From assembly GCF_020630935.1 (NCBI RefSeq), contig NZ_JAHDIG010000012.1, forward strand, positions 1-39,451: a stretch of DNA of 39,451 bases, written 5' to 3'. Positions 6,984 through 38,064 of this stretch are shown here, one piece after another; the stretch's first letter is position 1; each line of letters opens with the position of its first letter. Under the pieces are notes generated by a model. It did no database searches, was not told the origin of the DNA, and saw only the letters and a program-made list of their open reading frames with translations. The DNA comes from Bernardetia sp. (GTDB taxonomy: Bacteria > Bacteroidota > Bacteroidia > Cytophagales > Bernardetiaceae). The translations under genes were made by a program, and so were the position numbers.

Positions 6984-7027
6984 AACCGTAAACTAGATTT
7001 ATAATCATCGTTTAGGATAATTTTTTT
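6984..7027 (+). repeat. Diverged hairpin-repeat copy A, likely terminator of the 7TM/SpoIIE gene
   Basis: 6984-7017 aligns with the full copy at 38031-38064 (AACCGT-AAC-AG...TCGTT-AGGA) with several substitutions. Pairing is conserved: C to A in one arm (TAAAC) is matched by G to T in the other (GTTTA). It is followed by a T7 run at 7021-7027, so it should terminate transcription of the gene ending at 6955. Confidence 0.6.
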
Positions 7028-7065
7028 CCTCATTGATAGCTGTATTTTGAGCCTCAACGACGGTT
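7027..7065 (-). repeat. Diverged hairpin-repeat copy B
   Basis: The right arm CCTCAACGACGGTT (7052-7065) is identical to the conserved arm of the full copies at 30432 and 38031. The left arm TCCTCATTGA (7027-7036) is diverged but still pairs with it over six of seven positions. It lies head to tail with copy A in the gap between the convergent SpoIIE and glucosaminidase genes. Confidence 0.55.
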
Positions 7066-7090
7066 ATTTTTATTCTTAAACAACTTCTTA

Positions 7091-8185
7091 TCAATAATCT
7101 AACAAATCAAGATTATAACGTCTAATAATTTTTTTCAATAGTTCGCCATAAATAGGTGAAGTTGCATAGCCAACACCACCATACTTGGTAGAGCCAATTT
7201 TATCTGCCCAGTCTTCGTAGTTTTTTCCCTTTGTAAATAATGGAGAATAGCGTTTGCTCTCGTTTAAGAAAATAGAATGCGCTCTGAAAGATTCCCAAGG
7301 CGAAGAATAGTCTGCAAAGCTATCTTTTATAAGGCATTTATAAAGTGTTTTGCCATCTTTCTTAATGATTTTTGAATTTACCACTTTGCTTTTATTGGCT
7401 TTGTATTCGGCTGGCGTATAATATTCAGTAGTTGTGATGGCTTTTGTTTTTCTTTTTTTATCTTTTATTCCAAAGTAATTATTATTGACAATACGTTGTC
7501 CGTAAGCTGTTTCTAATGCCGATTGAGCAAGTTTGATGGAAGCTGGAACGTGATATTTGGCTTGTTCCATAAGAGCTGTTTCAAATTTTTTTAGGTCTTT
7601 TGTGCCTGTAAAGTATGCCATTACGTGAGGTTCTACCTTTGTTTGATTCAAAACAATAGTAATAAAGGCTTCGCTGAGTTTTTGATTCAAGGCAATCATT
7701 TTTTTATCATTGAGTTGGTCTAAACGAGAAACTTGATTTTCTATAAGTGCCTCACTAATGAGTGTATGCTTGACTTTTAAAAAGGCTTTACGCTTATCTT
7801 CTGTTTCTACTTTCGAAGGAGAACTGCTTTTAGAAAGGTGTTTGTAGCCATAACCTACCACATCGTCATACTCCACTTCATCATTTTCTTCAACTTCTTC
7901 TTGATTTCCTTTAGTCAGTCCTTCTCCTTCAAAATACTCTTTGTTGGTGTTTTCAGCTATTGATGCTACATGAACCGTTGTATTTTCTTTTTTCTCACTC
8001 ATCAGTAGAGAAATTTGTAAGATAGCAACGATGCTAAAAATTCCGATGAGCGCAAAAATAAGTCTGTTATTGAGTTGAATAACAAAAGTAAGGACATTAT
8101 TTTCTTTCTTAAATGGAATTCGAAGCGTAAAAGATTTTGAATATACAGGGCGAGTTGCCCATTTTTTAAAAGGTGCTGGTAACAT
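7091..8185 (-). CDS. Membrane-anchored glucosaminidase (peptidoglycan hydrolase)
   Basis: Cell-wall hydrolase of the mannosyl-glycoprotein endo-beta-N-acetylglucosaminidase/FlgJ-LytG-like family, cutting glycan strands in the periplasm. A basic N-terminus of about 40 residues precedes one membrane helix (about 42-62, IFALIGIFSIVAILQ), then an acidic linker (about 86-105) and the catalytic domain from about 205 to the end. The conserved block IKLAQSALETAYGQ near 215-228 contains the expected catalytic Glu; NNYFGIK and the SPWESFRAHS segment are further family marks. The single N-terminal helix suggests a type II membrane topology. It is convergent with the SpoIIE gene and divergent from the giant gene at 8486. 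Confidence 0.88.
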   Translation of the reverse strand: MLPAPFKKWATRPVYSKSFTLRIPFKKENNVLTFVIQLNNRLIFALIGIFSIVAILQISLLMSEKKENTTVHVASIAENTNKEYFEGEGLTKGNQEEVEENDEVEYDDVVGYGYKHLSKSSSPSKVETEDKRKAFLKVKHTLISEALIENQVSRLDQLNDKKMIALNQKLSEAFITIVLNQTKVEPHVMAYFTGTKDLKKFETALMEQAKYHVPASIKLAQSALETAYGQRIVNNNYFGIKDKKRKTKAITTTEYYTPAEYKANKSKVVNSKIIKKDGKTLYKCLIKDSFADYSSPWESFRAHSIFLNESKRYSPLFTKGKNYEDWADKIGSTKYGGVGYATSPIYGELLKKIIRRYNLDLLDY

Positions 8186-8485
8186 TTTGTATGCTATTGT
8201 TTATTAAATTATTGACTATATCTGATAATAAAATATCACTTATACTTTATGATTTTACTAACTTTTTAAACGACAATTTCGCTTTTTCTGTCTGTAAAAT
8301 TAACGAAAAGAAGTCAGTTTTGCGTTCCCTAACTAAACAAGAAAATTTATTGATAATGGAAATTTTATATTTTTTATTTTTAACAAAAAAAGCGTTTTCT
8401 CTTTTTCTACAAACTATTTTTTTCTAAAAAAAATCCGTATTTTTCATATTCTTGCTCAACTCATAATACTATAAATCCAAATATA
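8186..8485. other. Divergent promoter region, 300 bp
   Basis: AT-rich spacer between the glucosaminidase (-) and the giant secreted protein (+). TATTTTTC at about 8431-8438 is one base from the TAnnTTTG -7 consensus and could serve the plus-strand gene. An 84-codon frame overlapping here is low-complexity Phe/Leu-rich and I do not call it a gene. Confidence 0.4.
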
Positions 8486-11400
8486 ATGCGAGTTTTAAAA
8501 AAGTTACGACCACAAAACCTATCTAAAAATACGATGGTAAAGCCAATTAGTTGGCTTATTTTCTTACTATTTATATCTACTACTTTTCAAATACAGGCAC
8601 AAAGGCATTTTAACGATGAAAAAAAATTCGTTGAAGATATGCGTCAGATAATTGAAAGAAAATCTCAACCTCAAACAATAGAAATAGCAGATGGAGTGGC
8701 TTCTCTTTGGGATGGAGAGCTTTCAGAAGAGCAAAAGAAATTATTGTTTAAGGTAGCTAAAAATATGTATAGAAAAAACTACCCTACTAATCCTACTTCG
8801 GAAGATTTTTATGCTTGTATTTTTTATGGAAAACAAAATGGCAGACTGACAGACGAACTACTGACCTCGTTTTTGCAAGTTTCTGATACTACTGTTTCTG
8901 AAACATCTGTTGGAGTAGCAACTAATTTTTATAGGATTACACGTCTTTATTTGACAGAAAATATGCTCTACAAATATAAAACCAGTGGAGTTGTTGTAGA
9001 AGGAAATCAGAATTTTTCTTTTGGATATGGAAGGGAAGCTGCTGCCCCACAAGATGCAGTTGAGCTTCCAGAAGATATTAATGACATTATAGAAAGTCAA
9101 ACAGATACAGGGCAAGCCACTGAAGAAAAAAAAGAGACAGCAGAAGATTTAGGTTGGGGAGATGATTCAGGAACAGATGATAATGGATGGTCAAATGATG
9201 GATGGGATACAGGCTGGGTAGAGGAAAATGCAGGAGACGATGTACAAGTAGGAGACGGATGGGGAAGTCCAGACGAGTGGAGTAGTGGGGGAGACTGGGG
9301 AAATGCTACTGAAACAGCCAATAATGATGAACCAGAGAGTTATAATCCGATTGTTAAGCCTAACATAATGAGCAGTTTTGTGCAGCCTATTGCTGAAAAA
9401 CTAGAATTAGCAGGTCCTTATATGCAGTTAGATGATATTACTTTTACCATCCGAACGCCAAATGACACTGTTCAAATTCAGAATACTACTGGACAAGTAG
9501 TCTTTGCTCAAGGGGCATTTACAGGAGAAGGAGGACGTTTCGACTGGGGTGTTTTACCAGATGTATATGGAGAGTTTAGCAAATTTAGTTTCACTGTCAA
9601 AAAACCTGAAATAAAAGCAGAAGAGTTTAAATTATATTATGGTAGTTATGTAGATTCTGCTGTAATTGGACAATTTGACTACTTTGCAGCTCGTACAAAC
9701 AACAAACCAAATCCATTATATCCAAGGTTTACCTCTTATAATAATAATATAGAAGTAAAAGGATTTTTGAAAGACATTATTTATGAAGGAGGATTTTCCT
9801 TGATAGGTAAAAAAATAGTTTCAAAATCGCTTGGAGGAGGAGCAGCCTCTATAAGATTAGAACAAGAAGGAAAAACTCGCTTTAAGTCCACTTCAAGGCA
9901 AGATTATGTCTTTAGCGAACACGCTGTTACCAACCGACTTTCTCAGCTGATTATTTACACAGGCGAAAAAGATTCAATAGTCCATCAAGGAGTAAAACTT
10001 CGTTATGACGATGACAGTTTACAACTATTAGCTCGTAGAGACAAAAAACTCTTTAAATATGCTCCCTTTATAGACTCTTACCACGATGTGAGTATATCAG
10101 CTGACTATGTGAACTGGGATTTGAAGTCAGATACAATGAATATTTATAGCTTGGCTGGGCGTGGTGCTGTAATGGCTGCTTATGAGGCTGCAAGTCGCAA
10201 TGTATCTAAGAGGGATTCTATTATGAAGCAAATAGATTTTGTTACCGTTACTTCGAATGCCTATTTCAATGAGGCCGAATTACGTGCTGTTCAAGGGATG
10301 TATCCATTTAACCCTTTAGTTATGGCATGGGCATATATTTCAAGGCGCAAGCCATTTTCTCTTTCCTTTACAAGTGCAGATTTGGCAAATCATTTCAAAC
10401 AAAAACCTGTGCACGTAAAAAGTTCTATGCGTGATATGGCTGGAGCTGGCTTTGTTGAGTATGATGAGGCTGCCGACTGGGTAACGCTTACGCCAAAGGG
10501 ATTGCTTTATGCAAGAGCTAACCTTCCTATCAATAATCGCTTGCGTTCAGATTATGACCAAATACGACTTTCTTCATTGGGGACAAATAGCGATAATATT
10601 ACTTATTATTTTGAAAACAACGAACTAAAAGTCAGAGGTGTGGAAGAAGTAACTTATAGTAATGCTCAAGTAGATTCTGTAAACTATTATGCTGTAAAGG
10701 CAAAACCTGTTGATAAGCAAGTTATCATAAAAGAAAACAGAAACATGACAGTCAATGGACAGGTTGCAGCTAAAAACTTTATCTTTAATGGGGAAGGATT
10801 TGAGTTTGATTATAAAGATTTTAAATTTGATATGGCAAAAATTGACTCTATGCAGTTTTTTGTAGAAGGAGATACTATGCCAAATAGTTTTAAAGATGTA
10901 GCAGGGACATTTTCTATCAATCTTCCTAATAATAAAGCAGGAATCTATGACAGAAGAAGGTTTAGCGATTCGGAACGTTATCCACTTTTCAATACTACTT
11001 CTGGTGGAACAGTTCGTTTTGGAGGTAATGAAGTAATGAATGGAGCGTATAACGACTCAACAGTACGCTTCGATGTAGATAACTTTACACTAGATAGTTT
11101 ATCAAAAAGAAAACCTGAAGATTTGCGTTTTGGAGGAACATTCAATACTCCAATTTTTGAGAAATTTAAAGAACCCATACGAGTAATGCCAGATAAGTCT
11201 TTAGGTTTTACACACAATGTATTAGATGGGCAACATCCTGATGGAATGCCTTTGTATGGTGGAAAAGGAAAACTTCTGACAGGGCAAGTCGTGGTCAGTA
11301 ACAGTGGTATTCGTGCTGGTAATGAACGCTATATTCAAGATATTGAGGAGAATCCAAAAAATGTAAAAACAGATGAAACAAAGAGCGAAAAACCTATTGA

Positions 11401-13684
11401 TAACGAGCCTGCCAAGATGACGTACCTAGCAGCCGAGCTAAGTTCGAATGATTTTATATTCTTTGCAGATTCTGTAACAACAAAAGGAGCTTATGCAGCA
11501 AAACAAGCATCTTCACAAGGTAAAATCAATGCTGTTACGATAGATGATGCAATGTTTCCACAAGTGGAATTAGAAAATTATCAGATGCAATGGCTTCCTA
11601 AACAAGACAGTATGATGCTTACCACAACAGATACGCCATTCAGAATGTATAAAGGAGAGGGAGGAACACTAAAAGAGGCAAACTATACTGGAACTCTAGC
11701 ACTTACTCCATTAGGACTGAAAGGTTATGGACAGGTAGAAACGCAAGATGCTATCATCGAATCTAAATTATTTGCTTTCGAAACCACTCGTGTTTTTGGG
11801 CGTGAATCAGATTTTCAAATTAAATCATTGTCAAACGATTCTATTCCAGCCGTTGCTGCTAATAATGTAAAATTTGAATATGATATTTTGGCATCGCCTC
11901 GTACAGCTACCATTACATCAGAAGTTGTGGGAGAGAAAGTATTTGATTTTCCTAGTTTGCAGTATAAGACCTCTTTAGCTACAGGCTATTGGAATGCAGA
12001 TGCAAAGACAGTAGCTTTCCGATTGGATGAAACAGCAGATGTAAACCAACAATATTTCGTTTCAACTGCTCCAGAGCAAGACAGTTTGAATTTTAGAGCT
12101 GCATTTGCTAACTATCACATTCCTAGTGGAAACCTAACGATTGGAGGAGTTCCTTATATTTTGGTACTAGATACAGAAATCTATCCAAGAGAAGGAAATG
12201 TTACGATTCGTCAGAATGCTAAGATGGATAAATTGGAAGATGCCGAACTTATAGTTAATAATATCAATAAATACCATAAACTCACAGAAGGTACGATTGA
12301 TATTGTTTCTAGGAATGAATATCAAGGCGAAGCTGTATTGAACTACGACAACGGAACAGATAAGATACAATATTTAAGACTGAATAATTACGGAAAACAG
12401 CTCATTACAGAAAATGATTTGCCAGATTCTTTACGAAAAACAGCAATAGCTGAAAAACTTATCGGCACAGAAGGTACAGTATCAGTTACAAGCATCGTTG
12501 AAAATGATGATGTAATTGATGACACTGACTTTATCTATTCAGAAGGTAAACAGTTTAGAGGCGAAGTAACACTCAAAGCATGGCTTTCCGAATTAGAATT
12601 TAACGGACAGGCACGTCTTGTAATAGATGGAGTTCCACAAACAGGTTGGTTTCCTTTAGTGAGTGCTGCCTATGTAGATTCAAAATCTAAGAAAGCACAG
12701 AAAATTGCTGCAGCAGGTGCATCCGAACTTATCAAAGACCAAAAAATTGGTGGACAACCAGCCTTTACAGGTATTTATTTAGGAGAAGAAGGACTTTTTG
12801 TCCCTGTGATGCAAGAAGATATTCCGAAGGCAGACCCTATTTTCTTGGGAGAAGGTCAAGTAAAAGTAAAACCAGAAGAAAAATCAATTTTGATTATCTC
12901 TGAACAAAGAGCTAAATCTTCTGAAATAGAGGATGGAAATTCATTCAAAGCCAGTAAGACTCTAGGTACAGCAGAGTTTGATGGTAAATTGATGATGTTC
13001 AATAGTAATCAGAGAGCGCAAGTAGATGTTTCTGGTGTAGGAAAAGCTAACTTCCAAGAGAGCAAATATACCGTAGATGCAATGGTAAGCATTAATATAG
13101 AATCAAAAGGAAATGCGCTTTCATTTATGCGAGACGATTTGAATGCCTTTGTAGAGGAAAATAGAGAACGTTTAAGTCTAAAGCCTACTGTAAATAAATC
13201 AAAAAATACACTTCTCAAAATAGCAGGGCAAGCAGGTGCAAAAGAAGCTCAAAATTTCCAAAAAAGGTTTGCTCCAAATGATTATGGAATAGCAGATGTT
13301 ATTGATAAAACCATTGTGCTTTCAGATGTAACAATGAACTGGTCGCCAGACGAACAAACTTTTTATAGTGTTGGAGACATTGGGTTGGCTGCTATTCTGA
13401 AAGAGGAAATAGATGTAAATACGACAGGGTACTTAGAAATTCCACAAACAGGAAACAGAGATGAGTTTACACTCTATTTTGAGCTTGACCCAGACCAATG
13501 GTATTATTTCCAGTTTGATGGACGTACGCTCAAAACGCTTTCCTCAAGTGAAGAATATAACACACTAATTACAGACCCTAAAGGAAAAGATAAGTTTGAT
13601 TTAGCAGACCAAGCTGATGTAGATGAGTTTATGGCTCGTTTTAGAGGTGTTTATCCAACTACTCCAGCTATTCCTGTAAAGTAA
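8486..13684 (+). CDS. Giant secreted protein of unknown function (1732 residues)
   Basis: I do not recognise the family. A hydrophobic signal segment (WLIFLLFISTTFQIQAQ) follows either ATG 8486 or the in-frame ATG 8534; both give a plausible signal peptide, and 8486 adds a basic N-region. Residues about 215-285 form a Trp/Gly/Asp/Ser-rich acidic linker with many GW and WG steps (for example DDNGWSNDGWDTGW). The rest alternates charged and hydrophobic residues as in extended beta structure. Residues about 640-690 (HVKSSMRDMAGAGFVEYDEA) resemble a small winged-helix fold, which would be unusual in an exported protein. There is no T9SS sorting domain, so it may be periplasmic or outer-membrane associated. 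It stands alone and ends at a bidirectional terminator. The reading frame is intact over 5.2 kb. Confidence 0.85.
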   Translation: MRVLKKLRPQNLSKNTMVKPISWLIFLLFISTTFQIQAQRHFNDEKKFVEDMRQIIERKSQPQTIEIADGVASLWDGELSEEQKKLLFKVAKNMYRKNYPTNPTSEDFYACIFYGKQNGRLTDELLTSFLQVSDTTVSETSVGVATNFYRITRLYLTENMLYKYKTSGVVVEGNQNFSFGYGREAAAPQDAVELPEDINDIIESQTDTGQATEEKKETAEDLGWGDDSGTDDNGWSNDGWDTGWVEENAGDDVQVGDGWGSPDEWSSGGDWGNATETANNDEPESYNPIVKPNIMSSFVQPIAEKLELAGPYMQLDDITFTIRTPNDTVQIQNTTGQVVFAQGAFTGEGGRFDWGVLPDVYGEFSKFSFTVKKPEIKAEEFKLYYGSYVDSAVIGQFDYFAARTNNKPNPLYPRFTSYNNNIEVKGFLKDIIYEGGFSLIGKKIVSKSLGGGAASIRLEQEGKTRFKSTSRQDYVFSEHAVTNRLSQLIIYTGEKDSIVHQGVKLRYDDDSLQLLARRDKKLFKYAPFIDSYHDVSISADYVNWDLKSDTMNIYSLAGRGAVMAAYEAASRNVSKRDSIMKQIDFVTVTSNAYFNEAELRAVQGMYPFNPLVMAWAYISRRKPFSLSFTSADLANHFKQKPVHVKSSMRDMAGAGFVEYDEAADWVTLTPKGLLYARANLPINNRLRSDYDQIRLSSLGTNSDNITYYFENNELKVRGVEEVTYSNAQVDSVNYYAVKAKPVDKQVIIKENRNMTVNGQVAAKNFIFNGEGFEFDYKDFKFDMAKIDSMQFFVEGDTMPNSFKDVAGTFSINLPNNKAGIYDRRRFSDSERYPLFNTTSGGTVRFGGNEVMNGAYNDSTVRFDVDNFTLDSLSKRKPEDLRFGGTFNTPIFEKFKEPIRVMPDKSLGFTHNVLDGQHPDGMPLYGGKGKLLTGQVVVSNSGIRAGNERYIQDIEENPKNVKTDETKSEKPIDNEPAKMTYLAAELSSNDFIFFADSVTTKGAYAAKQASSQGKINAVTIDDAMFPQVELENYQMQWLPKQDSMMLTTTDTPFRMYKGEGGTLKEANYTGTLALTPLGLKGYGQVETQDAIIESKLFAFETTRVFGRESDFQIKSLSNDSIPAVAANNVKFEYDILASPRTATITSEVVGEKVFDFPSLQYKTSLATGYWNADAKTVAFRLDETADVNQQYFVSTAPEQDSLNFRAAFANYHIPSGNLTIGGVPYILVLDTEIYPREGNVTIRQNAKMDKLEDAELIVNNINKYHKLTEGTIDIVSRNEYQGEAVLNYDNGTDKIQYLRLNNYGKQLITENDLPDSLRKTAIAEKLIGTEGTVSVTSIVENDDVIDDTDFIYSEGKQFRGEVTLKAWLSELEFNGQARLVIDGVPQTGWFPLVSAAYVDSKSKKAQKIAAAGASELIKDQKIGGQPAFTGIYLGEEGLFVPVMQEDIPKADPIFLGEGQVKVKPEEKSILIISEQRAKSSEIEDGNSFKASKTLGTAEFDGKLMMFNSNQRAQVDVSGVGKANFQESKYTVDAMVSINIESKGNALSFMRDDLNAFVEENRERLSLKPTVNKSKNTLLKIAGQAGAKEAQNFQKRFAPNDYGIADVIDKTIVLSDVTMNWSPDEQTFYSVGDIGLAAILKEEIDVNTTGYLEIPQTGNRDEFTLYFELDPDQWYYFQFDGRTLKTLSSSEEYNTLITDPKGKDKFDLADQADVDEFMARFRGVYPTTPAIPVK

Positions 13685-13707
13685 CAATCAAGTAATTAAA
13701 TAAAAAG

Positions 13708-13740
13708 AAAAAGCTCATTTGCCAAGTAAATGAGCTTTTT
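13708..13740. terminator. Bidirectional terminator between the giant gene and dgkA
   Basis: Eight-bp GC-containing stem (GCTCATTT 13713-13720 with AAATGAGC 13728-13735), 7-nt loop, flanked by A and T runs on both sides. It serves the plus gene ending at 13684 and the minus gene ending at 13741. Confidence 0.85.
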
Positions 13741-14121
13741 TTATAAATTCATATTTTTCAATACAAAAAATATCCTCTCCCCAAAAATAATTATTCCTAC
13801 CACCAAGGCATATATAGCAGCAACTAACACAGCACCAGCAGCTAAATCTTTTATCTGCCCTGCTGTTTCATTTCTCTCTGGGCTAACCAAATCTACTAAT
13901 TTTTCTAAGGCTGTATTCAAAATTTCGCTTATCCAAACCAATGCAATAGCAGATAAAATAAACAACCATTCAGTAGAAGATATTTGAAAAGCAAAGCTGA
14001 AGGTTGTCGCTAAAATAGCACTAGGAATATGGATAAAGGCATTGTAGTCTTTGAGCATTATCCTAAGTCCATCAAAAGCGTGTTTCGTGCTACGAATTTG
14101 TTTCTTAAAATACGAAATCAT
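13741..14121 (-). CDS. dgkA: Diacylglycerol/undecaprenol kinase family protein
   Basis: Small integral membrane lipid kinase (126 residues) that phosphorylates diacylglycerol or undecaprenol in the inner membrane; which one cannot be told from sequence. Family signature EILNTALEKLVDLV...ERNETAGQIKDLAAGAVLVAA (about 65-101) contains the conserved catalytic Glu, the Asn and the Lys-Asp pair. Three hydrophobic segments are visible, as in DgkA. It lies 89 nt downstream of rnhB on the same strand and could be co-transcribed with it. The bidirectional terminator overlaps its stop codon. Confidence 0.92.
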   Translation of the reverse strand: MISYFKKQIRSTKHAFDGLRIMLKDYNAFIHIPSAILATTFSFAFQISSTEWLFILSAIALVWISEILNTALEKLVDLVSPERNETAGQIKDLAAGAVLVAAIYALVVGIIIFGERIFFVLKNMNL

Positions 14122-14210
14122 AGAATGACGGATTTAATCAATTCAAATTTTTATCATTAAATGACTAAAGTTCAAAACAATTATTTAAAAATGTAATTTC
14201 CCACTAACCA

Positions 14211-14822: not shown

Positions 14823-14841
14823 AATTGTTAAGTGTAAAGTA

Positions 14842-14873: not shown

Positions 14874-14884
14874 TAAGAGATAAA

Positions 14885-14917
14885 CCTAAACGCTGGCTTA
14901 AAACCTCGCTTACGGTT
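14885..14917 (-). repeat. Diverged hairpin-repeat copy C in the hisC leader
   Basis: The right arm ACCTCGCTTACGGTT (14903-14917) matches ACCTCGTTGACGGTT of the full copy at 30432 except for two bases; the left arm CCTAAACGCTGG is more diverged, and pairing is weaker than in other copies. It sits just downstream of the inferred transcription start. Confidence 0.4.
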
Positions 14918-14985
14918 GAAATTAGATAGACATAATTTATAACATAATGAACCAAGATATAATTAGTCAAGATAAAACAGAAAAA

Positions 14986-18676: not shown

Positions 18677-19402
18677 ATGAGTAAAAAATTAGAATTATCA
18701 TTTTTAGAGAGTAAAGACGGTTCGCATACTCTTCTTCGCCACGACCTCAATGAAACTTATCATTCTCACAACGGAGCAATTCAAGAATCTCTATGGGTTT
18801 TTATAGATAGAGGGTTAAAATACTTGAAGGAAAACGGATATGAAACTATCAAAGTATTAGAAATTGGCTTTGGAACAGGCTTAAATGCAATATTGGCGTA
18901 CGAATTTGCACAGAAAAATAATATTAAGATAGAATATGTTTCCTTAGAACCTTTTCCTGTGCCACTAGAAATTGCTGAAAAACTCAACTACACAGATTTT
19001 TTAGAGGAAGAGAGTAAAGAAATATTTGGTCAAATTCACAGATTAAGTTGGGAAGAAAAACACGAAGTTTCAAGCTATTTTTCAATACAAAAAATAGAAA
19101 ATACACTAGAGAATTTTAAAAATAATTCTGATTTTCAAAGTGAAATTACAGGGGAAGAAGAATTTGATTGTATTTTTTATGATGCTTTTGCACCTAGCAA
19201 ACAAGCAGAAGTGTGGCAACTTTCTAATCTTGAAAAAACTTTTAATATGACAAAAGAAAAAGGGATTTTGGTTACGTATTGCGCTCAAGGGCAGTTTAAA
19301 AGAGATTTAAAAACAGCAGGTTGGAGCATAGAAACCTTAGATGGCGCACCACCAAAAAGAGAAATGGTAAGAGCAATGAAATCAGTAACCAGTAGTCAGT
19401 AA
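18677..19402 (+). CDS. mnmD: tRNA 5-methylaminomethyl-2-thiouridine methyltransferase, MnmD (MnmC N-domain only)
   Basis: SAM-dependent enzyme that methylates the aminomethyl group at wobble U34 of tRNAs, the last step of mnm5s2U. At 241 residues it is the free-standing methyltransferase form without the FAD oxidase domain. Motifs: LEIGFGTGLNA (61-71) binds SAM; FYDAFAPSKQAEVW (about 167-180) is the DUF752/MnmC block; GAPPKREMVRA near the end is also conserved. The last residues SVTSSQ and the stop codon lie within a repeated element (19382-19406), so the tail is repeat-derived. Followed by kdsB on the same strand after 118 nt of extragenic repeat. Confidence 0.9.
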   Translation: MSKKLELSFLESKDGSHTLLRHDLNETYHSHNGAIQESLWVFIDRGLKYLKENGYETIKVLEIGFGTGLNAILAYEFAQKNNIKIEYVSLEPFPVPLEIAEKLNYTDFLEEESKEIFGQIHRLSWEEKHEVSSYFSIQKIENTLENFKNNSDFQSEITGEEEFDCIFYDAFAPSKQAEVWQLSNLEKTFNMTKEKGILVTYCAQGQFKRDLKTAGWSIETLDGAPPKREMVRAMKSVTSSQ

Positions 19403-19519
19403 CCAGTTTTTGTATTGTATTTAATTGACTTTGTCGTTTTTCAATTAGTTTCGCTGATTGCTTTGTAATTTTTAATTGGCTTCGCCTATTATTCCATAAT
19501 TTATAATTCGTAATTGACT
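19382..19519. repeat. AT-rich extragenic repeats between mnmD and kdsB
   Basis: Two repeat types. First, AGTAACCAGTAGTCAGTAACCAG (19384-19406) contains a near-tandem AGTAACCAG; its reverse complement matches the start of the fadA leader repeat (ACTGGTTACTGA...ACT near 36803). Second, 19410-19519 has repeating AATTG-CTT-G-C steps ending in TTCGTAATTGA, the inverse of the sequence just after kdsB (20270-20301). Confidence 0.55.
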
Positions 19520-30409: not shown

Positions 30410-30431
30410 TTTTTCATTGCTAATATCGCTA

Positions 30432-30464
30432 TCCTCAACGACGGTCTTGACCTCGTTGACGGTT
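30432..30464 (-). repeat. Hairpin-repeat copy D (full length)
   Basis: Reverse complement reads AACCGTCAACGAGGTC, AAG, ACCGTCGTTGAGGA; the two blocks are identical to copy E at 38031-38064. The arms pair as CC(G)TCAACGAGG with CCG(TCGTTGA)GG: seven contiguous pairs plus two flanking CC/GG pairs separated by single bulged G residues. It sits in the 5' region of the minus-strand outer-membrane gene. Confidence 0.85.
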
Positions 30465-30597
30465 AAAAAATAAAATAAATCTACTAAAATTTTCTTTCTA
30501 CCAAGTTATAAAAAATTATAACAACTCATTTGCCTTTTGTTTTTTTAGTAAATTTCAATTTTAGATTTTTTACTTATCAAACCTTCATACAAAACGA

Positions 30598-33189
30598 ATG
30601 AAATTAAAACTATTCCCTATTTTATCTTTATTTCTACTCTTTTCTTCCATTTCAGTTTTTGCTCAAAATCCTTCAAAAATTGAAAATTATTATTTTGAGA
30701 CTTTAAAAAAACAAAATCAAGACATAAAGTTTAACCCTGCTATCCCAACACCTAAACAGGTTTTGGGTTTTGAAATTGGCGACTGGCACGTTTCACACGA
30801 CAAACTCCTCTTTTATCTTCATACGATTGCTCAAGTATCAAATAGAGTGAGCATTGATACGATTGGTTTTACGCACGAACAGCGTCCTCTTATTCAATTA
30901 ATTATAACAAATCCTACAAATCAAAATAATTTAGAAGAGATTAGGAAAAAACATGTAGAGCTAACCAATCCAAATGCATCTGTAAGCACAGAAAATCTAC
31001 CTGTGGTGGTGTGGCAAGGATACAGTATTCACGGAAATGAAGCGAGTGGAAGCAATGCAGCACTTTTGTATGCCTATTATTTGGCTGCTGCTCAAGGAGA
31101 AAAAATTGAAAGCCAACTCAAAAATGCTATTATTATTCTTGACCCAAGTTTTAACCCAGACGGACTCAACCGTTTTGCCAGTTGGGTAAATATGCACAAA
31201 AGCCAGTCATTTGTAACTGACCCCAACCGGAGAGAAACTAATGAACCTTTTCCACGAGGACGAACAAATCATTATTGGTTTGATTTGAATAGAGACTGGT
31301 TGCCTGTACAGCAGCCTGAAAGTAAGGCAAGATTGAAGCGTTTTCACCAGTGGAAACCAAATATTTTGACAGACCATCACGAAATGGGAACAAACAGTAC
31401 ATTTTTCTTTCAACCAGGTGTGCCACAGCGCACAAACCCAATTACGCCACAAAAAAATCAAGAACTGACAGGTGAAATTGGAAAATTTCACGCTAATTTT
31501 TTAGATAATATTGGCTCGCTGTATTATACACAGCAAAGTTTTGATGATTTTTATTATGGAAAAGGCTCAACTTATCCAGATGTAAATGGCTCGGTAGGTA
31601 TTCTTTTTGAGCAAGCCAGCGCAAGAGGACATGCACAAGAGAGTCAAAATGGTGTGCTGACATTTGAATTTGCTATTAGAAATCAGCTCACTACTTCGCT
31701 TTCGACACTAGAAGCTGCTGTAAATCTTAGGAAAGAACTTTTAGACTATCAACAAAATTTCTATAAAACGGCTGCCGATTTTGCTCAAAATTCTGCTGAA
31801 AAAGGCTATTTGATTGGAGGAAAAAATGATATTCCACGTTTAGAGGCTCTTTTAAAGATTCTGGAAACACATCAGATTGATTTCTATCTTACCAAAAATG
31901 AAGTCCAAGAAAATCAAGGTAGAAATTCGGTTACTTTTTCAAATAAAAATGCTGTAGTCGTACCTATCAATCAAGCACAAGGTAGAATTGTAAAAGCTCT
32001 TTTCGATACGCCAAAAACCTTTAAAGACAGTATTTTTTATGATGTTTCGGCGTGGACATTTACTTATTCTTTTGGATTAGAACAAAAACGACTTTCTCAA
32101 AGTGAAGTTTCTAGCTTACAAGGAGAGAAAATAGCAGCATCTTATTTTTCCAAGAAATTCAAAGAAGAGAGTGCAGAAATTCAGAGAAGTGAAATAGGGT
32201 ATTTAATAGATTGGAAAAATTATTATGCACCAAAATTAGTAAATCAGTTGTTAGAAAATAGTCTGAATGTCAAAGTGAATGAAGAAGTATTTTCTTATCA
32301 AATAAATAACAAAATCGTAGAGTTTGATAGAGGAACTATTTTTGTTAAAGCACCAAACAATGAAAATGAAGCAGCTCAATTATTAGAAACACTAAAATCA
32401 GCAAAACAAAACCATTCTATTAAAATCACATCTTTAAAAACAGGTTTAACAGATGAAGGAATAGATTTGGGAAGTCCAAGTTTTCAGACGTTGAAGTTGC
32501 CTAAAGTTTTGATTGTAGTAGGCGAAGGAGTAGATTCGTATGAGGCTGGTGAAATGTGGCATTTATTGGATTTACGTTATGACATGAAAGTTTCACTTAT
32601 AGAAGCAAGTGATTTATCAAGAATTGATTTGCAGAATTATACGACTATTATTTTACCAAGTGGTTATCCTAGAGGACTAAACACGAATACTCTTGCAGAT
32701 TTTACACAGAATGGAGGAAAGCTGATTGCAGTCGGTTCGTCTATCAATTTTTTGAAGGGGAGTCAGTATTTCAATTTATCCCAAAAAGAAGGTAGTAGTT
32801 CAGAAATAAGACAACGTCTAAAATACGAAAATCAAAGTAACGACCGAGGAGCAAATTATATTGGTGGACTTATTTTGGAAGGAGAACTAGACCTTTCCAA
32901 TCCGATTGCTTTTGGTTACGAATCTGAAACGATTCGTGTTTTTAAGGATAATAGAATATTTTTAGAATATACAGAGAATCCGTATTCTATGCCTCTTGTT
33001 TATTCGCCAAATGCTGTTGTGAGTGGATATTCATCAAAGTCAAACAAAGAAAAGGTGCAAAATAGTGTTTCTATTATTTCAAAAAATGTAGGAAGAGGGA
33101 AATTTGTAGCTTTTGCAGATAATCCCAACTTTAGAGCATTTTGGTACGGAACAAATCGTTTATTTATCAACGCTATCTTTTTTCAATAA
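30598..33189 (+). CDS. Secreted M14 family zinc carboxypeptidase
   Basis: Exported metallopeptidase of 863 residues; signal peptide ends SVFAQ. Zinc ligands: HGNEAS (His145, Glu148) and the later His in LTDHHEMG (about 260); the substrate-binding FDLNRDW lies between them, and LTFEFAIRNQ (near 355) supplies the probable catalytic Glu. The C-terminal third (about 630-740, LPKVLIVVGEGVDSYEAGEMW, TTIILPSGYPRG) resembles a class I glutamine amidotransferase-like fold seen behind M14 domains in this phylum. There is no T9SS sorting domain, so it is probably periplasmic or released. It probably trims peptides for nutrition. Monocistronic, with a strong terminator. Confidence 0.9.
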   Translation: MKLKLFPILSLFLLFSSISVFAQNPSKIENYYFETLKKQNQDIKFNPAIPTPKQVLGFEIGDWHVSHDKLLFYLHTIAQVSNRVSIDTIGFTHEQRPLIQLIITNPTNQNNLEEIRKKHVELTNPNASVSTENLPVVVWQGYSIHGNEASGSNAALLYAYYLAAAQGEKIESQLKNAIIILDPSFNPDGLNRFASWVNMHKSQSFVTDPNRRETNEPFPRGRTNHYWFDLNRDWLPVQQPESKARLKRFHQWKPNILTDHHEMGTNSTFFFQPGVPQRTNPITPQKNQELTGEIGKFHANFLDNIGSLYYTQQSFDDFYYGKGSTYPDVNGSVGILFEQASARGHAQESQNGVLTFEFAIRNQLTTSLSTLEAAVNLRKELLDYQQNFYKTAADFAQNSAEKGYLIGGKNDIPRLEALLKILETHQIDFYLTKNEVQENQGRNSVTFSNKNAVVVPINQAQGRIVKALFDTPKTFKDSIFYDVSAWTFTYSFGLEQKRLSQSEVSSLQGEKIAASYFSKKFKEESAEIQRSEIGYLIDWKNYYAPKLVNQLLENSLNVKVNEEVFSYQINNKIVEFDRGTIFVKAPNNENEAAQLLETLKSAKQNHSIKITSLKTGLTDEGIDLGSPSFQTLKLPKVLIVVGEGVDSYEAGEMWHLLDLRYDMKVSLIEASDLSRIDLQNYTTIILPSGYPRGLNTNTLADFTQNGGKLIAVGSSINFLKGSQYFNLSQKEGSSSEIRQRLKYENQSNDRGANYIGGLILEGELDLSNPIAFGYESETIRVFKDNRIFLEYTENPYSMPLVYSPNAVVSGYSSKSNKEKVQNSVSIISKNVGRGKFVAFADNPNFRAFWYGTNRLFINAIFFQ

Positions 33190-33204
33190 CATCTAAGTTA
33201 CATC

Positions 33205-33253
33205 TCAAACTTCCCATAGCACATAGATTTTATGGTGGGAAGTTTGAATTTTT
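33205..33253 (+). terminator. Terminator of the M14 peptidase gene
   Basis: Perfect 12-bp stem TCAAACTTCCCA (33205-33216)/TGGGAAGTTTGA (33236-33247), 19-nt loop, then a T5 run. Confidence 0.88.
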
Positions 33254-33428
33254 GTTTTATCTAGCCAAAATGAGAAAGTTTTTAGCTTAATCAATAAATT
33301 TTAAAATAGAATAGCGAGCTATTGGATGAAAATAACGCAAATACAAGCTGAAATTTACTGTTTGTAGCTCAAAGAAATAGCTTTAAACAAGCTCTTAATT
33401 GATATAGCATAAAAATTTTCTTAAAAAA

Positions 33429-33442
33429 TTATGCACGCATAA
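33429..33442. promoter_or_regulatory. Palindrome, candidate MarR operator
   Basis: TTATGCACGCATAA is a perfect 6+6 inverted repeat with a 2-nt centre. It ends 11 nt before the -7 element at 33454, covering where the -33 element should be, as expected for a repressor operator. Confidence 0.4.
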
Positions 33443-33453
33443 CATTTTTTATG

Positions 33454-33461
33454 TACCTTTG
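33454..33461 (+). promoter_or_regulatory. -7 element upstream of the marR-type gene
   Basis: TACCTTTG is an exact TAnnTTTG match, giving a leader of about 110 nt. A second match, TAATTTTG at 33520-33527, would give a shorter leader; which is used cannot be told. Confidence 0.45.
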
Positions 33462-33579
33462 TTTATAGCCTTATACTTCGAAATTACCAAATAATAAACG
33501 GAATAAGAAATAGAAAAAGTAATTTTGATAATACGAAAACAAATTTCTCAATATATATCAGAAAAATAGTTTAATAGCA

Positions 33580-34155
33580 ATGAATAATAATGGCACTCAA
33601 GAACAAAGAAAAGAAGTAGAGAAAAACATTGAAGATAAAATAGACCAATCATTACGAAAAAAAAGACGTTCTGTCGATTTTGCTATCAAAGCTTCTTGGC
33701 TGGCTATTGCAAAAATGTATAATATGATAGGTGCAGAACACGGAATTACACACTCTACTGGATTTGTTTTGTTGAACATAGACCAAGAAAACGGCTCTCC
33801 TGCAACCAAAATAGCTCCGCTTATGGGAATGGAAGCTCGCTCACTGACACGTATTTTGAAGTCAATGGAAGAAGAAGGGCTTATTGTTCGTCAGAGTGAT
33901 ACCGAAGATAGAAGGAAAGTAATGATTTGCCTAACAAAAGAAGGAAAGCTAAGAAGAGAAGCAGCTAGGCAATCTGTAAAGACATTTAATAAGCAAATTT
34001 TTGACAAACTTTCTCCAGAGAAAATGGAACATTTTTTTGAGGTTATAGAACATATCAATAGAACAGCAGAAAGAAATTTATCACAAAAAAATGACTTTGT
34101 ACAGAATGTACGTCAAAAAGTAGAAGAAGCACAGAAAGATAACTTTCAAAAATAA
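33580..34155 (+). CDS. MarR family transcriptional regulator
   Basis: Winged-helix regulator of 191 residues. Helix-rich N-terminus (about 30-60), then the DNA-binding region: SPATKIAPLMGMEARSLTRI (recognition helix, about 70-90), LKSMEEEGLIVRQSDTEDRRKV with the wing arginines (DRRK) near 110, and CLTKEGKLRREAA. A long C-terminal helix suits dimerisation. It lies 92 nt upstream of fadN on the same strand, so it most likely controls fatty-acid degradation, perhaps sensing acyl-CoA (inference), and a palindrome at its own promoter suggests autoregulation. The N-terminus has a charged extension of about 25 residues beyond typical MarR proteins. Confidence 0.9.
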   Translation: MNNNGTQEQRKEVEKNIEDKIDQSLRKKRRSVDFAIKASWLAIAKMYNMIGAEHGITHSTGFVLLNIDQENGSPATKIAPLMGMEARSLTRILKSMEEEGLIVRQSDTEDRRKVMICLTKEGKLRREAARQSVKTFNKQIFDKLSPEKMEHFFEVIEHINRTAERNLSQKNDFVQNVRQKVEEAQKDNFQK

Positions 34156-34171
34156 AACGTAACTTAGAACT

Positions 34172-34192
34172 TAAGAGAAAACTCTTATGGTT
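34172..34192 (+). terminator. Weak terminator-like hairpin between the marR-type gene and fadN
   Basis: TAAGAG/CTCTTA 6-bp stem with a GAAAAC-type loop region, then TGG and T5. Weak; partial read-through into fadN is likely. Confidence 0.35.
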
Positions 34193-34247
34193 TTTAGTAA
34201 AAAAGATAACTTTTTAGATTTTAATTTAACTCCAAAACTATATTTTT

Positions 34248-36680
34248 ATGACTACAGCTCAAGCTCCTGCTAGTGTAGAGAACAGCAAAAGCGCAAAAAA
34301 AACAGCAGAACGTCACATCCGTAAGGTGGCAATTTTAGGTTCTGGTGTAATGGGTTCTCGTATTGCAGCTCATTTCGCTAACATCGGTTGTGAAGTTGTC
34401 TTATTAGACATCATTCCATTAGAAGCTCCAAAAGACGAAAAGCAAGAAAAAAGTCTTCTTTGGAGAAACAGTTTGGTAAACAAGTTCCTCGTAGAAGCTA
34501 CTAAATCTAAGCCTGCGCCTTTTTATAGCACTAGCTTTGCCAGCCGTATCAAAACAGGAAACCTTACTGATAATTTAGATTGGATTGCTGATTGTGATTT
34601 AATCTTAGAAGCTGTCATTGAAAGACTTGATATAAAACAACAACTTTTTGAAAGAGTAGAGCAGTATCGTAGAGAAGATGCTATCATCGCTTCAAATACT
34701 TCTGGTATTCCAATGCACATGCTCATCGAAGGCAGAAGCCAAGGCTTTAAAGAGCATTTTTGTGGAATGCACTTCTTCAACCCTCCTCGTTATATGCGTT
34801 TGTTGGAGATTATTCCTTGTGAGCATACAAAACCAGAAATTGTAGATTTCTTATTACACTACGGCGACCTTTATTTAGGTAAAGAAACAGTTCTTTGTAA
34901 AGATACTCCAGCATTTATCGCTAACCGTGTAGGTGTTTTTGCAATTATGTCTGGTCTTCACGCTGTTGAAAAGTATGGTCTGACAGTAGGTGAAGTAGAT
35001 AGACTTACAGGTCCAATTATCGGACGTGCAAAATCGGCTACTTTCCGTACCCTTGACGTAGTTGGATTAGATACAACTATCAAAGTAGCGCAAGGTGTAG
35101 CGCAAAACGTTCCAAACGACGAGCAAAAACACATGTTTGAGCTTCCAAACATTGTTAAAGAACTTGATAAACGCAAATGGTACGGAGATAAAACCAAACA
35201 AGGTTATTTCAAGAAAACAAAAGACGAAAAAGGCAAAACTGTAATCCTTGAGTTAGATTTAGTTAATTACGAATACAAGCCAACAGAAAAGCCAAATATT
35301 AAAGTATATGGCAAAGCAAAAGATGAGGATGATTTGAGCAAGCGTTTTGCAATCTTCTTAAATGATGATTCAAAATATGGAGAGTTTTTCCGTACTACTT
35401 TCTATGATGTTTTTGCTTACGTTTCTAACCGTATTCCAGAAATTGCAGACCACGTTTATCAGATAGATGACGCTGTTTCAGCTGGTTTTGGTTGGGAAAT
35501 GGGACCTTTCGCTACTTGGGATGCACTTGGTGTACAAGATACGATTGCCAAAATGGAAGAAGCTGGCTATAAAGTAGCTGACTGGGTAAAAGGAGTAGAT
35601 TCGTTCTTCAAAACAGAAAACGGTCAGAGAAAATATTACGATATTGAATCTAAATCGTACAAGACAGTTCCAGGAACTGAAGAATTTATTGTTTTAGATG
35701 CAATCCGTGGAACAAATAAGGTTTGGGGCAACGACGGAACAACTATCTTTGATTTGGGAGATGGAGTTTTAGGACTTGAGTTCCATACAAAAATGAATGC
35801 TATCGGTAGTGAAGTAATTGAAGGTATCAATACAGCTATTTCTTTAGCAGAAAAAGATTATACAAGTTTAGTAATTGGTAATGATTCACCAAACTTCTCA
35901 GCAGGTGCAAACTTGGCTATGCTTTATATGTATGCGTTGGAGCAAGAATTTGACGAAATTGAAATGATGATTCGTCAGTTCCAAAATACAATGATGAGAG
36001 CAAAATATTCTGCCATCCCTGTTGTAGCTGCTACATCTGGCTTAGCTCTTGGTGGTGGTTGTGAGCTTTGTTTACACGCAGACCACGTACAAGCACATAC
36101 AGAAACATATATGGGATTGGTTGAAGTTGGTGTAGGTCTTATTCCAGCAGGTGGAGGAACAAAAGAAATGATTCGTCGTACTGCTAACTCTTACGCTGGT
36201 GGCGATCCTAAGGTAAATCGTTTACAAGAAATTTTCTTGAATATTGCGACAGCTAAAGTAGCTACTTCAGCACAAGAGGCTTTAGAAATGGGATTCCTTC
36301 GTGGACACGATGACTACACGCTCAACCGTTCAAGACTTTTAGCTGATGCAAAACGCAAGGCAATGGAAATGGTAGCTTCTGGTTATACACAGCCTACACA
36401 ACAACAAGATATCGCAGTAGAAGGACGTACAGCTTTAGCTACCTTTACAGCAGGTGCAGTAGGCATGATGTACGGACACTATGCGTCTGAACACGATATC
36501 AAAATTGCTAAAAAATTAGCTTACGTAATCGCTGGTGGCGACCTTTCAGGACCTGCAAAAGTTTCGGAACAATATCTTTTAGATTTAGAAAGAGAAGCAT
36601 TCTTATCGCTTACAGGTGAGCAAAAAACTTTAGACAGAGTAAATAGCATCTTGTTTAAAGGAAAACCACTTCGTAACTAA
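34248..36680 (+). CDS. fadN: 3-hydroxyacyl-CoA dehydrogenase/enoyl-CoA hydratase, FadN-type
   Basis: Bifunctional beta-oxidation enzyme of 810 residues. Order is dehydrogenase first, hydratase last, as in Bacillus FadN and opposite to FadB/FadJ. NAD motif VAILGSGVMGSRIAAHFA (28-45); 3-hydroxyacyl-CoA block GMHFFNPPRYMRLLEII and DTPAFIANRVGVF; C-terminal dehydrogenase part GFGWEMGPFATWDALG. The hydratase part runs from about 510: SPNFSAGANLAML, GLALGGGCELCLHAD (Glu about 605) and YMGLVEVGVGLIPAGGG (second catalytic Glu). Both active sites look intact. Downstream fadA completes the cycle after 164 nt containing a hairpin and repeats. Confidence 0.93.
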   Translation: MTTAQAPASVENSKSAKKTAERHIRKVAILGSGVMGSRIAAHFANIGCEVVLLDIIPLEAPKDEKQEKSLLWRNSLVNKFLVEATKSKPAPFYSTSFASRIKTGNLTDNLDWIADCDLILEAVIERLDIKQQLFERVEQYRREDAIIASNTSGIPMHMLIEGRSQGFKEHFCGMHFFNPPRYMRLLEIIPCEHTKPEIVDFLLHYGDLYLGKETVLCKDTPAFIANRVGVFAIMSGLHAVEKYGLTVGEVDRLTGPIIGRAKSATFRTLDVVGLDTTIKVAQGVAQNVPNDEQKHMFELPNIVKELDKRKWYGDKTKQGYFKKTKDEKGKTVILELDLVNYEYKPTEKPNIKVYGKAKDEDDLSKRFAIFLNDDSKYGEFFRTTFYDVFAYVSNRIPEIADHVYQIDDAVSAGFGWEMGPFATWDALGVQDTIAKMEEAGYKVADWVKGVDSFFKTENGQRKYYDIESKSYKTVPGTEEFIVLDAIRGTNKVWGNDGTTIFDLGDGVLGLEFHTKMNAIGSEVIEGINTAISLAEKDYTSLVIGNDSPNFSAGANLAMLYMYALEQEFDEIEMMIRQFQNTMMRAKYSAIPVVAATSGLALGGGCELCLHADHVQAHTETYMGLVEVGVGLIPAGGGTKEMIRRTANSYAGGDPKVNRLQEIFLNIATAKVATSAQEALEMGFLRGHDDYTLNRSRLLADAKRKAMEMVASGYTQPTQQQDIAVEGRTALATFTAGAVGMMYGHYASEHDIKIAKKLAYVIAGGDLSGPAKVSEQYLLDLEREAFLSLTGEQKTLDRVNSILFKGKPLRN

Positions 36681-36694
36681 TTGATAATTAAAAA

Positions 36695-36733
36695 TTGAGA
36701 ATGGATAATTAAAAATTCTCAAAACTTTTTTTT
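36695..36733 (+). terminator. Terminator or attenuator between fadN and fadA
   Basis: TTGAGAAT (36695-36702)/ATTCTCAA (36715-36722) 8-bp stem, 12-nt loop, then AAAC and T8. A GATAATTAAAAATT direct repeat (36683 and 36704) is part of the same AT-rich extragenic type as near kdsB. It could lower fadA expression relative to fadN. Confidence 0.55.
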
Positions 36734-36750
36734 AATATATAAAATAACAA

Positions 36751-36841
36751 AGTTATCAGTAACTCTTCTCAACAGTTTTCAACTGTTGGAAACTTGGTTT
36801 TAACTGGTTACTGATGACTGATAACTGATAACTGATAACTG
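36751..36841. repeat. fadA leader repeat: heptamer array and inverted elements
   Basis: ACTGAT(A/G) repeated 4.6 times at 36810-36841, ending 3 nt before the fadA ATG. Upstream AGTTATCAGTAAC (36751-36763) is the near-inverse of the array, and AACAGTT-TTC-AACTGTT (36771-36787) is a perfect hairpin. The array can therefore fold back on the leader. Confidence 0.7.
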
Positions 36842-36844
36842 AAA

Positions 36845-38023
36845 ATGAGTCAAACAGCATATATAGTAACTGGCTTCCGTAGCGCAGTAGGAAAAGCTAA
36901 AAAAGGTGGTTTCAGAAACTACCGTTCAGACGATTTGGCTGCTGATGTAATTAAGCATCTTGTAAAGTCTGTTCCAGAATTAGACCCAACACGTATTGAC
37001 GATGTTATCGTTGGTAATGCCATTCCAGAAGGTGAGCAAGGAATGCAAATGGGTAGAATCGTTTCTCTTCTTTCTCTTCCTCTCAACGTTCCAGGGATGG
37101 TCTTGAACCGTTATTGTGGTTCTGGCTTGGAGGCAATCGGCTTGGCTTCTGCACGTATTCAAGCAGGAACAGCAGATTGTATTATTGCTGGAGGAACAGA
37201 ATCTATGTCTGCTCTTCCAATGATGGGTTACAAACCTGCTCTTAACTGGAATATCGTAAGCGAACACCCAGAATACATGCTTTCTATGGGACTTACAGCA
37301 GAGGAAATTGTACGTGATTACAAAATTACTCGTCAAGACCAAGATGAGTTTTCTGTAAAGTCACACCAAAAAGCATTGAAAGCCATTGAAGAAGGTAAAT
37401 TTAAGAGTCAGATTGTTCCTGTTGAAGTAGAAGAAACTTACTACGAAGACGGACAGAAAAAAACTCGTAAATATGTAGTGGATACAGACGAAGGGCCTCG
37501 TGCAGATACGTCTATGGAAGGTTTACAGCGTTTGCGTCCTGCATTTGCAATGGACGGAACGGTTACAGCAGGTAATTCTTCTCAAACTTCAGACGGAGCA
37601 GCTTTTGTTTTGGTAATGTCTGAAAAAATGGTAGAAGAATTAGGCTTAAAACCACGTTTGAAAATGTTGGCTTACACGTCTGCTGGTGTTGATCCACGTA
37701 TTATGGGAATTGGTCCTGTGGCTGCTGTGCCGAAAGCATTGAAGCAAGCTGGCTTAAAACTAGAAGATATCGACATTATCGAACTCAATGAAGCCTTTGC
37801 AGCACAATCTTTAGCTGTAATCCGTGATTTGAAATTGGATGAAGAAAAAGTAAATCCAAACGGTGGTGCGATTGCTCTAGGACACCCTCTAGGCTGTACA
37901 GGTGCTAAACTTACAGTTCAGCTTATGAACGAAATGGAAGCTCAAGATAAGAAATACGGAATGGTTACTGCTTGTATTGGTGGTGGTCAGGGTATTGCTG
38001 GTATTTTTGAGCGTGTGAATTAA
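36845..38023 (+). CDS. fadA: Acetyl-CoA acyltransferase (3-ketoacyl-CoA thiolase)
   Basis: Last step of beta-oxidation, releasing acetyl-CoA. 392 residues, typical for the family. The acyl-accepting Cys lies in [15 protein letters not shown] (about 91), the His in [16 protein letters not shown] (about 347) and the second Cys in ACIGGGQG (about 377), with NEAFAAQ as the expected conserved block. All catalytic residues are present. Placement after fadN favours a degradative thiolase over biosynthetic acetoacetyl-CoA thiolase. Translation begins directly behind the heptamer array. Confidence 0.94.
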
Positions 38024-38030
38024 TAAAACT

Positions 38031-38064
38031 AACCGTCAACGAGGTCTAAAACCGTCGTTGAGGA
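38031..38064 (+). repeat. Hairpin-repeat copy E (full length), after fadA
   Basis: AACCGTCAACGAGGTC, TAAA, ACCGTCGTTGAGGA, 8 nt after the fadA stop; same blocks as copy D in the opposite orientation. It is followed by T6 (38065-38070), so it can act as a first terminator for fadA. Confidence 0.85.

Follow-up and report, generated by a model that had tools for sequence, protein, structure and literature searches.

Repetitive extragenic palindromic sequences (REPs) are known to lie dispersed between genes, to form inverted doublets (REP doublets forming hairpins, or REPINs), of which single copies are likely remnants, and to bracket the gene of a REP-associated tyrosine transposase (RAYT), as described in PMC3116915 and PMC2817692. 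In Pseudomonas, excised doublets have been followed by population sequencing (PMC3116915). Here, we report a hairpin family with the same arrangement in a stretch of 39,451 nucleotides from Bernardetia sp. (NZ_JAHDIG010000012.1, positions 1 to 39,451; hereafter the window). The window lies at the beginning of contig 12 in a 4.75-Mb draft genome of 153 contigs that is 97.4% complete (G000). Its host is a Bernardetia (family Bernardetiaceae, order Cytophagales). In contrast to the described systems, the Bernardetia hairpins have no GT(A/G)G head, are mostly single, are found without their enzyme in the window's genome and belong to a member of Bacteroidota. The RAYT-associated REP/REPIN family is real and of a known kind, in an atypical variant that is new as far as we searched the literature; it appears to be orphaned and partly remobilised in a miniature element.

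The enzyme, which we found in sister genomes, resembles TnpA-REP proteins in its HuH motif NHFH, in its tyrosine motif YIHKNP and in an F at the position that is W in most subclasses (FQ for part of subclass 2.1; PMC6006769). Read by motif alone and not with the profiles of that paper, the enzyme would fit subclass 2.1 by its motifs and subclass 2.4 or 2.6 by phylum. The same paper describes atypical structures without GTAG for subclasses 2.6 (Bacteroidetes) and 3, and reports no REP-like sequences for subclass 2.1. The F-type enzyme of Bernardetia differs from subclass 2.1 in that it carries REPIN-like pairs.

The hairpins can also be compared to the REPs tagged with CGTC. According to PMC3733652, these have an unpaired CGTC tag, a stem of 8–9 bp, a loop of 4–5 nt and a CCA tail, and are reportedly without a transposase. 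The Bernardetia hairpins share with them the CGTC near the 5′ end, the inverted dimers and the intergenic location. However, their CGTC lies partly within the stem, their loop mostly measures 5–12 nt, their 3′ end is GAGGA and they have a dedicated transposase; they are not CGTC REPs. We found no published description of REPs in Bernardetia in the genus literature, judged by title and the start of the abstract. Flexibacter litoralis has been named for A/T-rich triplex motifs (PMC4666352), which are a different feature.

Copies, placement and covariation of the hairpin

The sequence-only reading of the window had described five dispersed hairpins (A to E; Table 1) and suggested that they form a REP-like family, which a transposase encoded elsewhere may mobilise. 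The copy number, the intergenic bias and the covariation given below, together with a RAYT bracketed by the hairpins in sister species, support this suggestion.

We count at least 127 copies in the window's genome with the covariance model R1 (E≤0.1). This number is a lower bound because 150 of 1242 first-look candidates were scored. R1 was built from 47 hairpin rows, taken out of 95 listed rows and pre-filtered for at least six of seven paired stem positions; they include A, B, D and E but not C. That the recurrence is beyond chance, as had been claimed, is also clear from the exact 12-mer CCGTCAACGAGG, which occurs 33 times in the genome and never when reversed. With control counts of zero, a chance origin is ruled out. 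No known RNA family was found among the hairpins at gathering scores.

The copies avoid genes, here taken as open reading frames (ORFs) of at least 100 aa rather than curated annotation. Each of the 127 could be assigned a place on the sequence examined, and only 13 lie at least half inside such an ORF, several of them at ORF ends, where random placement in the same loci would put 104.6. The 110 hairpins that lie outside ORFs and have ORFs on both sides are found in tandem (67), convergent (23) and divergent (20) gaps. The supply of gaps longer than 35 nt is 109, 33 and 31, respectively. Hence, hairpin contexts are roughly proportional to what is available, and the hairpins are therefore unlike a set of terminators.

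Each unit is an imperfect palindrome of about 30–39 nt, which reads AACC-G-TCAACGA-GG, loop, CC-G-TCGTTGA-GG-A. Its stem has eleven core pairs and one unpaired G per arm, as the sequence-only reading saw in its symmetric bulged Gs. The foot is conserved (AA, then CC paired with GG; 3′ end GAGGA), and the arms occur in both orders, with GTTGA or AACGA first, in addition to a TAAACGA subfamily. Short, palindromic, extragenic and present in many copies, the unit has the properties of a REP.

The stems are kept by compensatory changes. For distribution and covariation we used a search pattern in which five positions per arm are open to two letters each and pairing is not imposed. The covariation test covers 150 listed of 207 pattern matches from seven genomes, a set that leaves aside the matches of G008 and G009. 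All five open positions are paired in 148 of the 150 matches; when arms are shuffled, this holds for 57 matches on average and for 74 at most. The letters that close the loop covary as well (142 of 150 paired; at most 121 in shuffles). In the R1 alignment there are 75 double changes, a number reached in none of 500 shuffles. The 97.9% pairing of that alignment is biased upward because its rows were pre-filtered for pairing; the fair test is the one on the 150 pattern matches.

Forty-two of the 127 copies form 21 adjacent pairs, all of them inverted and none in the same orientation. In 14 pairs AACC points outward (gap 3–9 nt) and in seven it points inward (gap 8–20 nt). With two inverted REPs and a short spacer, they are built like REPINs. 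All but one of the outward pairs (13 of 14) are the same heterodimer, a short-loop TAAACGA unit joined to a long-loop CTCAAAATRCAG-like unit, and A together with B is one of the 13.

A RAYT between hairpins in sister genomes

Among the relatives we compared, Bernardetia sp. MAG-102 (G006), Flexibacter sp. CG_4_10_14_3 (G005) and an uncultured Cytophagales bin (G004) are assigned to the same genus as the window's genome. Pattern matches occur in all seven genus genomes (3 to 44 each), in two of four further genomes from the family, with 13 and 2 matches, and in none of 107 sampled genomes from other families of the order; controls gave zero throughout. The last result suggested that the hairpin is confined to the family. 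This idea fails: G147, a genome of another family that is not part of the sample of 107, has three exact pattern matches beside its RAYT, and the scaffold is therefore not restricted to the family. A wide taxonomic spread can be rejected too. Of at least 120 stretches with matches, 80 were listed; the records among them from outside Cytophagales have one match or, in a few cases, two and come from unrelated taxa, so that by their names alone we take them as chance.

The sequence-only reading had pointed to a RAYT-like Y1 transposase as a possible mobiliser. Such an enzyme exists, bracketed by the hairpins, in sister species and not in the assembly of the window's genome. It has about 205 aa and is present in G006, G002 (86% identical to that of G006) and G004 (80%). 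In all three genomes, CCGTC hairpins stand directly before its start and after its stop, mostly as inverted pairs. When 11.5–13 kb are compared, the three loci align only in the RAYT and its hairpins. Because they share nothing else, the block of RAYT and hairpins seems to have moved. The three genes form a clade (support 95/94). All three have a hairpin within 300 nt, as opposed to one of 66 other Y1/RAYT ORFs (probability about 8e-5, calculated by hand for all three being among the four flagged of 69). The 69 are ORFs longer than 110 aa that have a HuH-like motif; they were retained after being compared with ten of their number and come from 80 stretches plus L054-L062 (L-numbers are loci); fragments and genes without the motif among 122 profile matches were left out. 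Besides the HuH and catalytic tyrosine motifs, a relation to TnpA-REP is indicated by the NCBIfam model REP_Tyr_transpos (NF047646; E 1.1e-13 to 1.5e-14) and by TnpArep in PDB entry 4er8 (E 8e-4 over 33 residues).

The RAYT of G147 (L519) is 64% identical; R1 matches (22.6–33.9 bits) lie on both sides of its gene, two upstream and five downstream. Inverted hairpins flank the RAYT on both sides in all three Bernardetia members of the clade, and the association extends to G147. In some G147 hairpins the stem core GGC/GCC replaces AAC/GTT. The G147 hairpin pairs behind the RAYT stand in tandem with a period of 62–64 nt, like the arrays of bacterial interspersed mosaic elements. L519 is one of six RAYTs inspected outside the genus, which score best among 88 genomes with a match. 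The five others are 52–54% identical and have no R1 match. In L520 and L521 the RAYT lies between palindromes of other kinds; in the remaining three we found no repeat common to both flanks, the upstream flank being readable in all but two, where the start was set too far inside.

Hairpin E allows a comparison between species at one site, 3′ of the stop of the preceding gene. There, G004 is identical to E over 34 nt, G001 and G006 have hairpins of other subtypes, and G002, G003 and G005 have no hairpin of this family, by eye and with R1. A separate stem with a T run lies downstream in six of the seven genomes (where the sequence reaches), with or without the hairpin. In the window it occupies 38071–38108, and the T run that the sequence-only reading included in the context of E belongs to this stem instead. 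The pattern fits an insertion upstream of a native terminator; recurrent loss of the hairpin is a possible alternative.

The slot at this site is filled in G003 (L489) by a GGGAAAAGG..CCTTTTCC hairpin, whose motif has 21 matches in the loci examined (both strands, overlapping loci counted). This looks like a position shared by several families of hairpins. In the window, a decayed remnant of a RAYT from another clade lies just 3′ of E (38130–38280). It matches the gene region of L255 at 84% over 76 nt and 78% over 77 nt, and the intervening part is missing.

One could argue that the hairpins are regulatory or RNA-processing elements of the host, such as terminators or stabilisers of mRNA 3′ ends, which are under selection and were never mobile. 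Stems maintained by paired changes fit such elements, E does lie just 3′ of a stop codon, and between G000 and G004 it shows no difference, against 88.5% identity at the end of the adjoining gene. Yet the gap contexts simply track the supply of gaps, the hairpin is missing at the site of E in three of seven genomes while the six readable ones have their own stem and T run, the family is absent from the 107 sampled genomes of other families, and hairpins stand on both sides of RAYT genes. We consider host regulation quite improbable as an account of the family, and the gap contexts and the comparison at E speak against terminator function as the main explanation.

The explanation we prefer, with a probability of about 0.83, is that the hairpins are an atypical REP family, that their doublets are REPIN-like non-autonomous mobile elements and that the RAYT is their cognate enzyme. 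If it works like TnpA-REP of E. coli and like IS200/IS605, the HuH/Y1 RAYT would recognise the single-stranded hairpin, cleave the DNA next to it and insert the hairpin at another intergenic site. The lineage of the window would have kept more than 100 copies and seems to have lost the RAYT. One heterodimer may also have been captured in an element with terminal inverted repeats (TIRs) that makes 3-bp target duplications, and the resulting shells would probably be copied in trans by a DDE-type transposase. A and B are a decayed member of this shell group, and C, D and E are single hairpins. Effects on the host through mRNA ends or DNA structure would be secondary.

Several observations weigh against this explanation. 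First, the hairpins lack the unpaired GT(A/G)G tetranucleotide at their foot, and 85 of the 127 copies are single, whereas typical REPINs are mostly doublets. Second, the enzyme scores 51–54 bits against NF047646, below the cut-off of 80 bits, and matches no Pfam family at E≤1. Third, the link between hairpin and RAYT has gaps: the one other ORF with a hairpin nearby is an unrelated RAYT (L244), only one of the six RAYTs outside the genus has the scaffold, and G008 has 13 pattern matches and no RAYT match at E≤1. Fourth, no cognate RAYT was found in the window's genome, although the draft leaves room for a missed gene, and its nearest RAYT is 54% identical, of another clade and flanked by a different repeat. 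Fifth, no movement was observed, and presence and absence were compared between species at a single site.

Since the window's genome has no cognate RAYT, its hairpins look like orphans that have apparently lost their enzyme, subject to the caveat of a draft genome. G003 contains only a decayed N-terminal RAYT remnant, yet it has 41 pattern matches, and a close RAYT match is also absent in G001 and G005. At E≤1, G001 has 37 matches to the RAYT profile, fragments included.

The hairpins would not be orphans if a RAYT of a different clade in the window's genome mobilised them in trans. Candidates are present: the genome has nine Y1/RAYT-type genes (L031-L034, L054-L062), among them the nearest relative of the cognate enzyme mentioned above. 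However, the flanks of these genes, as far as examined, carry other short repeats, several of which are clear hairpins. Across the nine loci R1 gives a single match; it lies about 520 nt away from the gene on C3 (C-numbers are contigs of G000) and beyond a neighbouring ORF, and we take it as coincidence. None of the nine genes is bracketed by the hairpin, and we reject them as direct mobilisers. Mobilisation in trans by one of them seems unlikely to us.

Hairpins of the window and their inverted-repeat shell

With filters off, the five best R1 matches in the window are E, D, A, B and C, and the next matches score 10.1 bits (E 0.81). Each of the five lies between listed ORFs, which confirms the intergenic places given in the sequence-only reading, except that C starts at 14884 and not at 14885. 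D and E have two exact blocks in common in opposite orientations, as described. E folds with a z of −3.7 and D, as DNA, at −8.1 kcal/mol (z −2.4); the fold of C on its own is weak (z −0.7). The genes to the left and right of D match different places in relatives.

A and B had been taken for separate copies. They are the halves of one decayed double hairpin: they pair AACC-out with a gap of 9, and heterodimer and orientation are the same as in intact genome copies, with nearly equal spacing. Their pairing was thought to be kept through paired changes, which is true of a C-G to A-T change in A, while A also has one T/C mismatch and B has G-T pairs. A had moreover been called decayed. The doublet as a whole is a decayed member of its group, but the C-G to A-T change is shared with intact members of the TAAACGA subfamily and is a subfamily trait rather than decay.

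Table 1. Hairpins and shell features in the window (positions in window coordinates; R1 scores in bits)
Feature	Position	Strand	Description
Hairpin A	6984..7017	+	TAAACGA subfamily, left half of doublet; R1 41.0
Hairpin B	7027..7065	-	Long-loop subfamily, loop CTCAAAATACAG, right half of doublet; R1 38.5
Hairpin C	14884..14917	-	Decayed single copy in divergent gap; R1 29.0, E 1.2e-6 in the window
Hairpin D	30432..30464	-	Intact single copy; R1 50.6
Hairpin E	38031..38064	+	Intact single copy just 3′ of stop codon (ORF end 38023); R1 54.5
Decayed TIR unit of about 130 nt carrying A and B	6954..7086	.	TIR intact on the B side, decayed on the A side; outer edge on the A side approximate, by eye
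Intact outer TIR AAGTTGTTTAAGAAT	7072..7086	-	Exact match; sole end recognised automatically for the unit with A and B

Most outward doublets of the window's genome sit inside a unit bounded by AAGTTGTTTAAGAAT and its complement, which we call a shell; the TIR sequence is GAAGTTGTTTAAGAA. Complete doublet shells measure 127–129 nt, or 148 nt in one variant (L002, L003, L005, L027, L030, L043, L351, L383). The shell end (15 nt, at most two mismatches) has 182 matches in the genome, compared to 82 for the reversed control. Because a single end is weak evidence, we used only units with both ends. There are 30 such shells in the examined loci of G000, and 21 of them have a 3-bp direct repeat one base outside the ends, where shuffling gives a mean of 2.4. 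The 30 are not a genome count, as many of the loci were retrieved via the end repeat itself. The set omits the shells of L004 and L047, which were accepted with looser ends in the doublet analysis, and includes L347 and L362, whose near-identical flanks may make them one duplicated stretch. With a 15-nt TIR, units of 110–210 nt that leave no room for a transposase gene, and target duplications, the shells have the features of miniature inverted-repeat transposable elements. We found no shell transposase.

What the shells contain varies. By simple motif tests, nine of the 30 hold the CCGTC doublet and 16 a CAAGATTCCATCTTG/CAGCATATGCTG hairpin set. Four hold a hairpin like the neighbour of the RAYT on C17 and one a hairpin like the neighbour of the RAYT on C34, links that are drawn from motif similarity.

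Outside the window's genome, seven loci of G001 that were retrieved with a CAAGATTCC-type probe hold shells with that content. Misses of this probe in G002, G004, G005 and G006 are uninformative about shells with other content because the probe includes the content itself. Apart from the seven G001 loci, no unit with two shell ends was found in 174 further loci (593 kb, overlaps counted; with one exception from other family genomes), and none of the 31 distinct doublets in these loci has both ends. Pairs of both arrangements, inward and outward, also occur in other Bernardetia genomes, where they are spaced differently and lack the TIR shell.

Could the hairpins have spread only as passengers of this miniature element, with the RAYT association being incidental? 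Complete shells with the same heterodimer do account for nine of the 21 pairs, with A and B keeping one recognisable end in addition, and 3-bp duplications are present at 21 of 30 shells. Single hairpins, however, have a shell end within 130 nt in only 6 of 85 cases, shells are missing from the 174 further loci, and the three related RAYT genes are bracketed by hairpins. A spread by shells alone is thus highly improbable.

Several shell ends coincide with contig ends, and one longer stretch that we followed looks like another insertion sequence (IS) joined to a shell. In L376, L380, L381 and L391 (contigs C133, C11, C102 and C124), the junction between IS-like sequence and shell falls on one and the same point of the CAAGATTCCATC hairpin, as if an IS targeted this hairpin. 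An open frame starts in the IS-like sequence of L381. The window contains further repeats. An inverted repeat of GTAACTGGTTACTGAT type occurs at 19381–19408 and 36802–36829, and 36801–36845 matches dozens of places in relatives. The segment 33242–33400 (about 158 nt) has several matches of 74–81% scattered in G003 and is probably a further repeat family.

A likely second route of spread and its meaning

The nesting of a REP dimer within an outer palindrome has a precedent in GTAG-15 of Anabaena variabilis (PMC3733652), whose REP dimer is likewise enclosed by an outer inverted repeat. According to the same paper, no target palindrome free of REPs was found in A. variabilis. In Bernardetia, by contrast, the outer repeat holds other hairpin sets too and makes 3-bp target duplications. 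We found no precedent in the REP literature examined for a shell that has target duplications and can hold several kinds of hairpin.

The simplest reading of the doublet shells is that one doublet was captured once and then copied as a miniature element. TIR shells are a likely second route of hairpin spread, one that the sequence-only reading did not foresee. More tentatively, and somewhat short of even odds in our view, the TIR element may acquire REP hairpins that belong to several unrelated RAYT families and go on copying them once the cognate RAYT is lost, so that REPs persist as passengers.

The Bernardetia hairpins add a REPIN-like family with a likely cognate enzyme, and without a GTAG tag, in Bacteroidota. 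The motifs of the enzyme fit a subclass reported without REPs, and hence guide recognition without GTAG becomes testable. Sister species with and without the RAYT provide a natural comparison of how REPs persist once their enzyme is gone, and the TIR shells suggest that there is a second way for REPs to spread.

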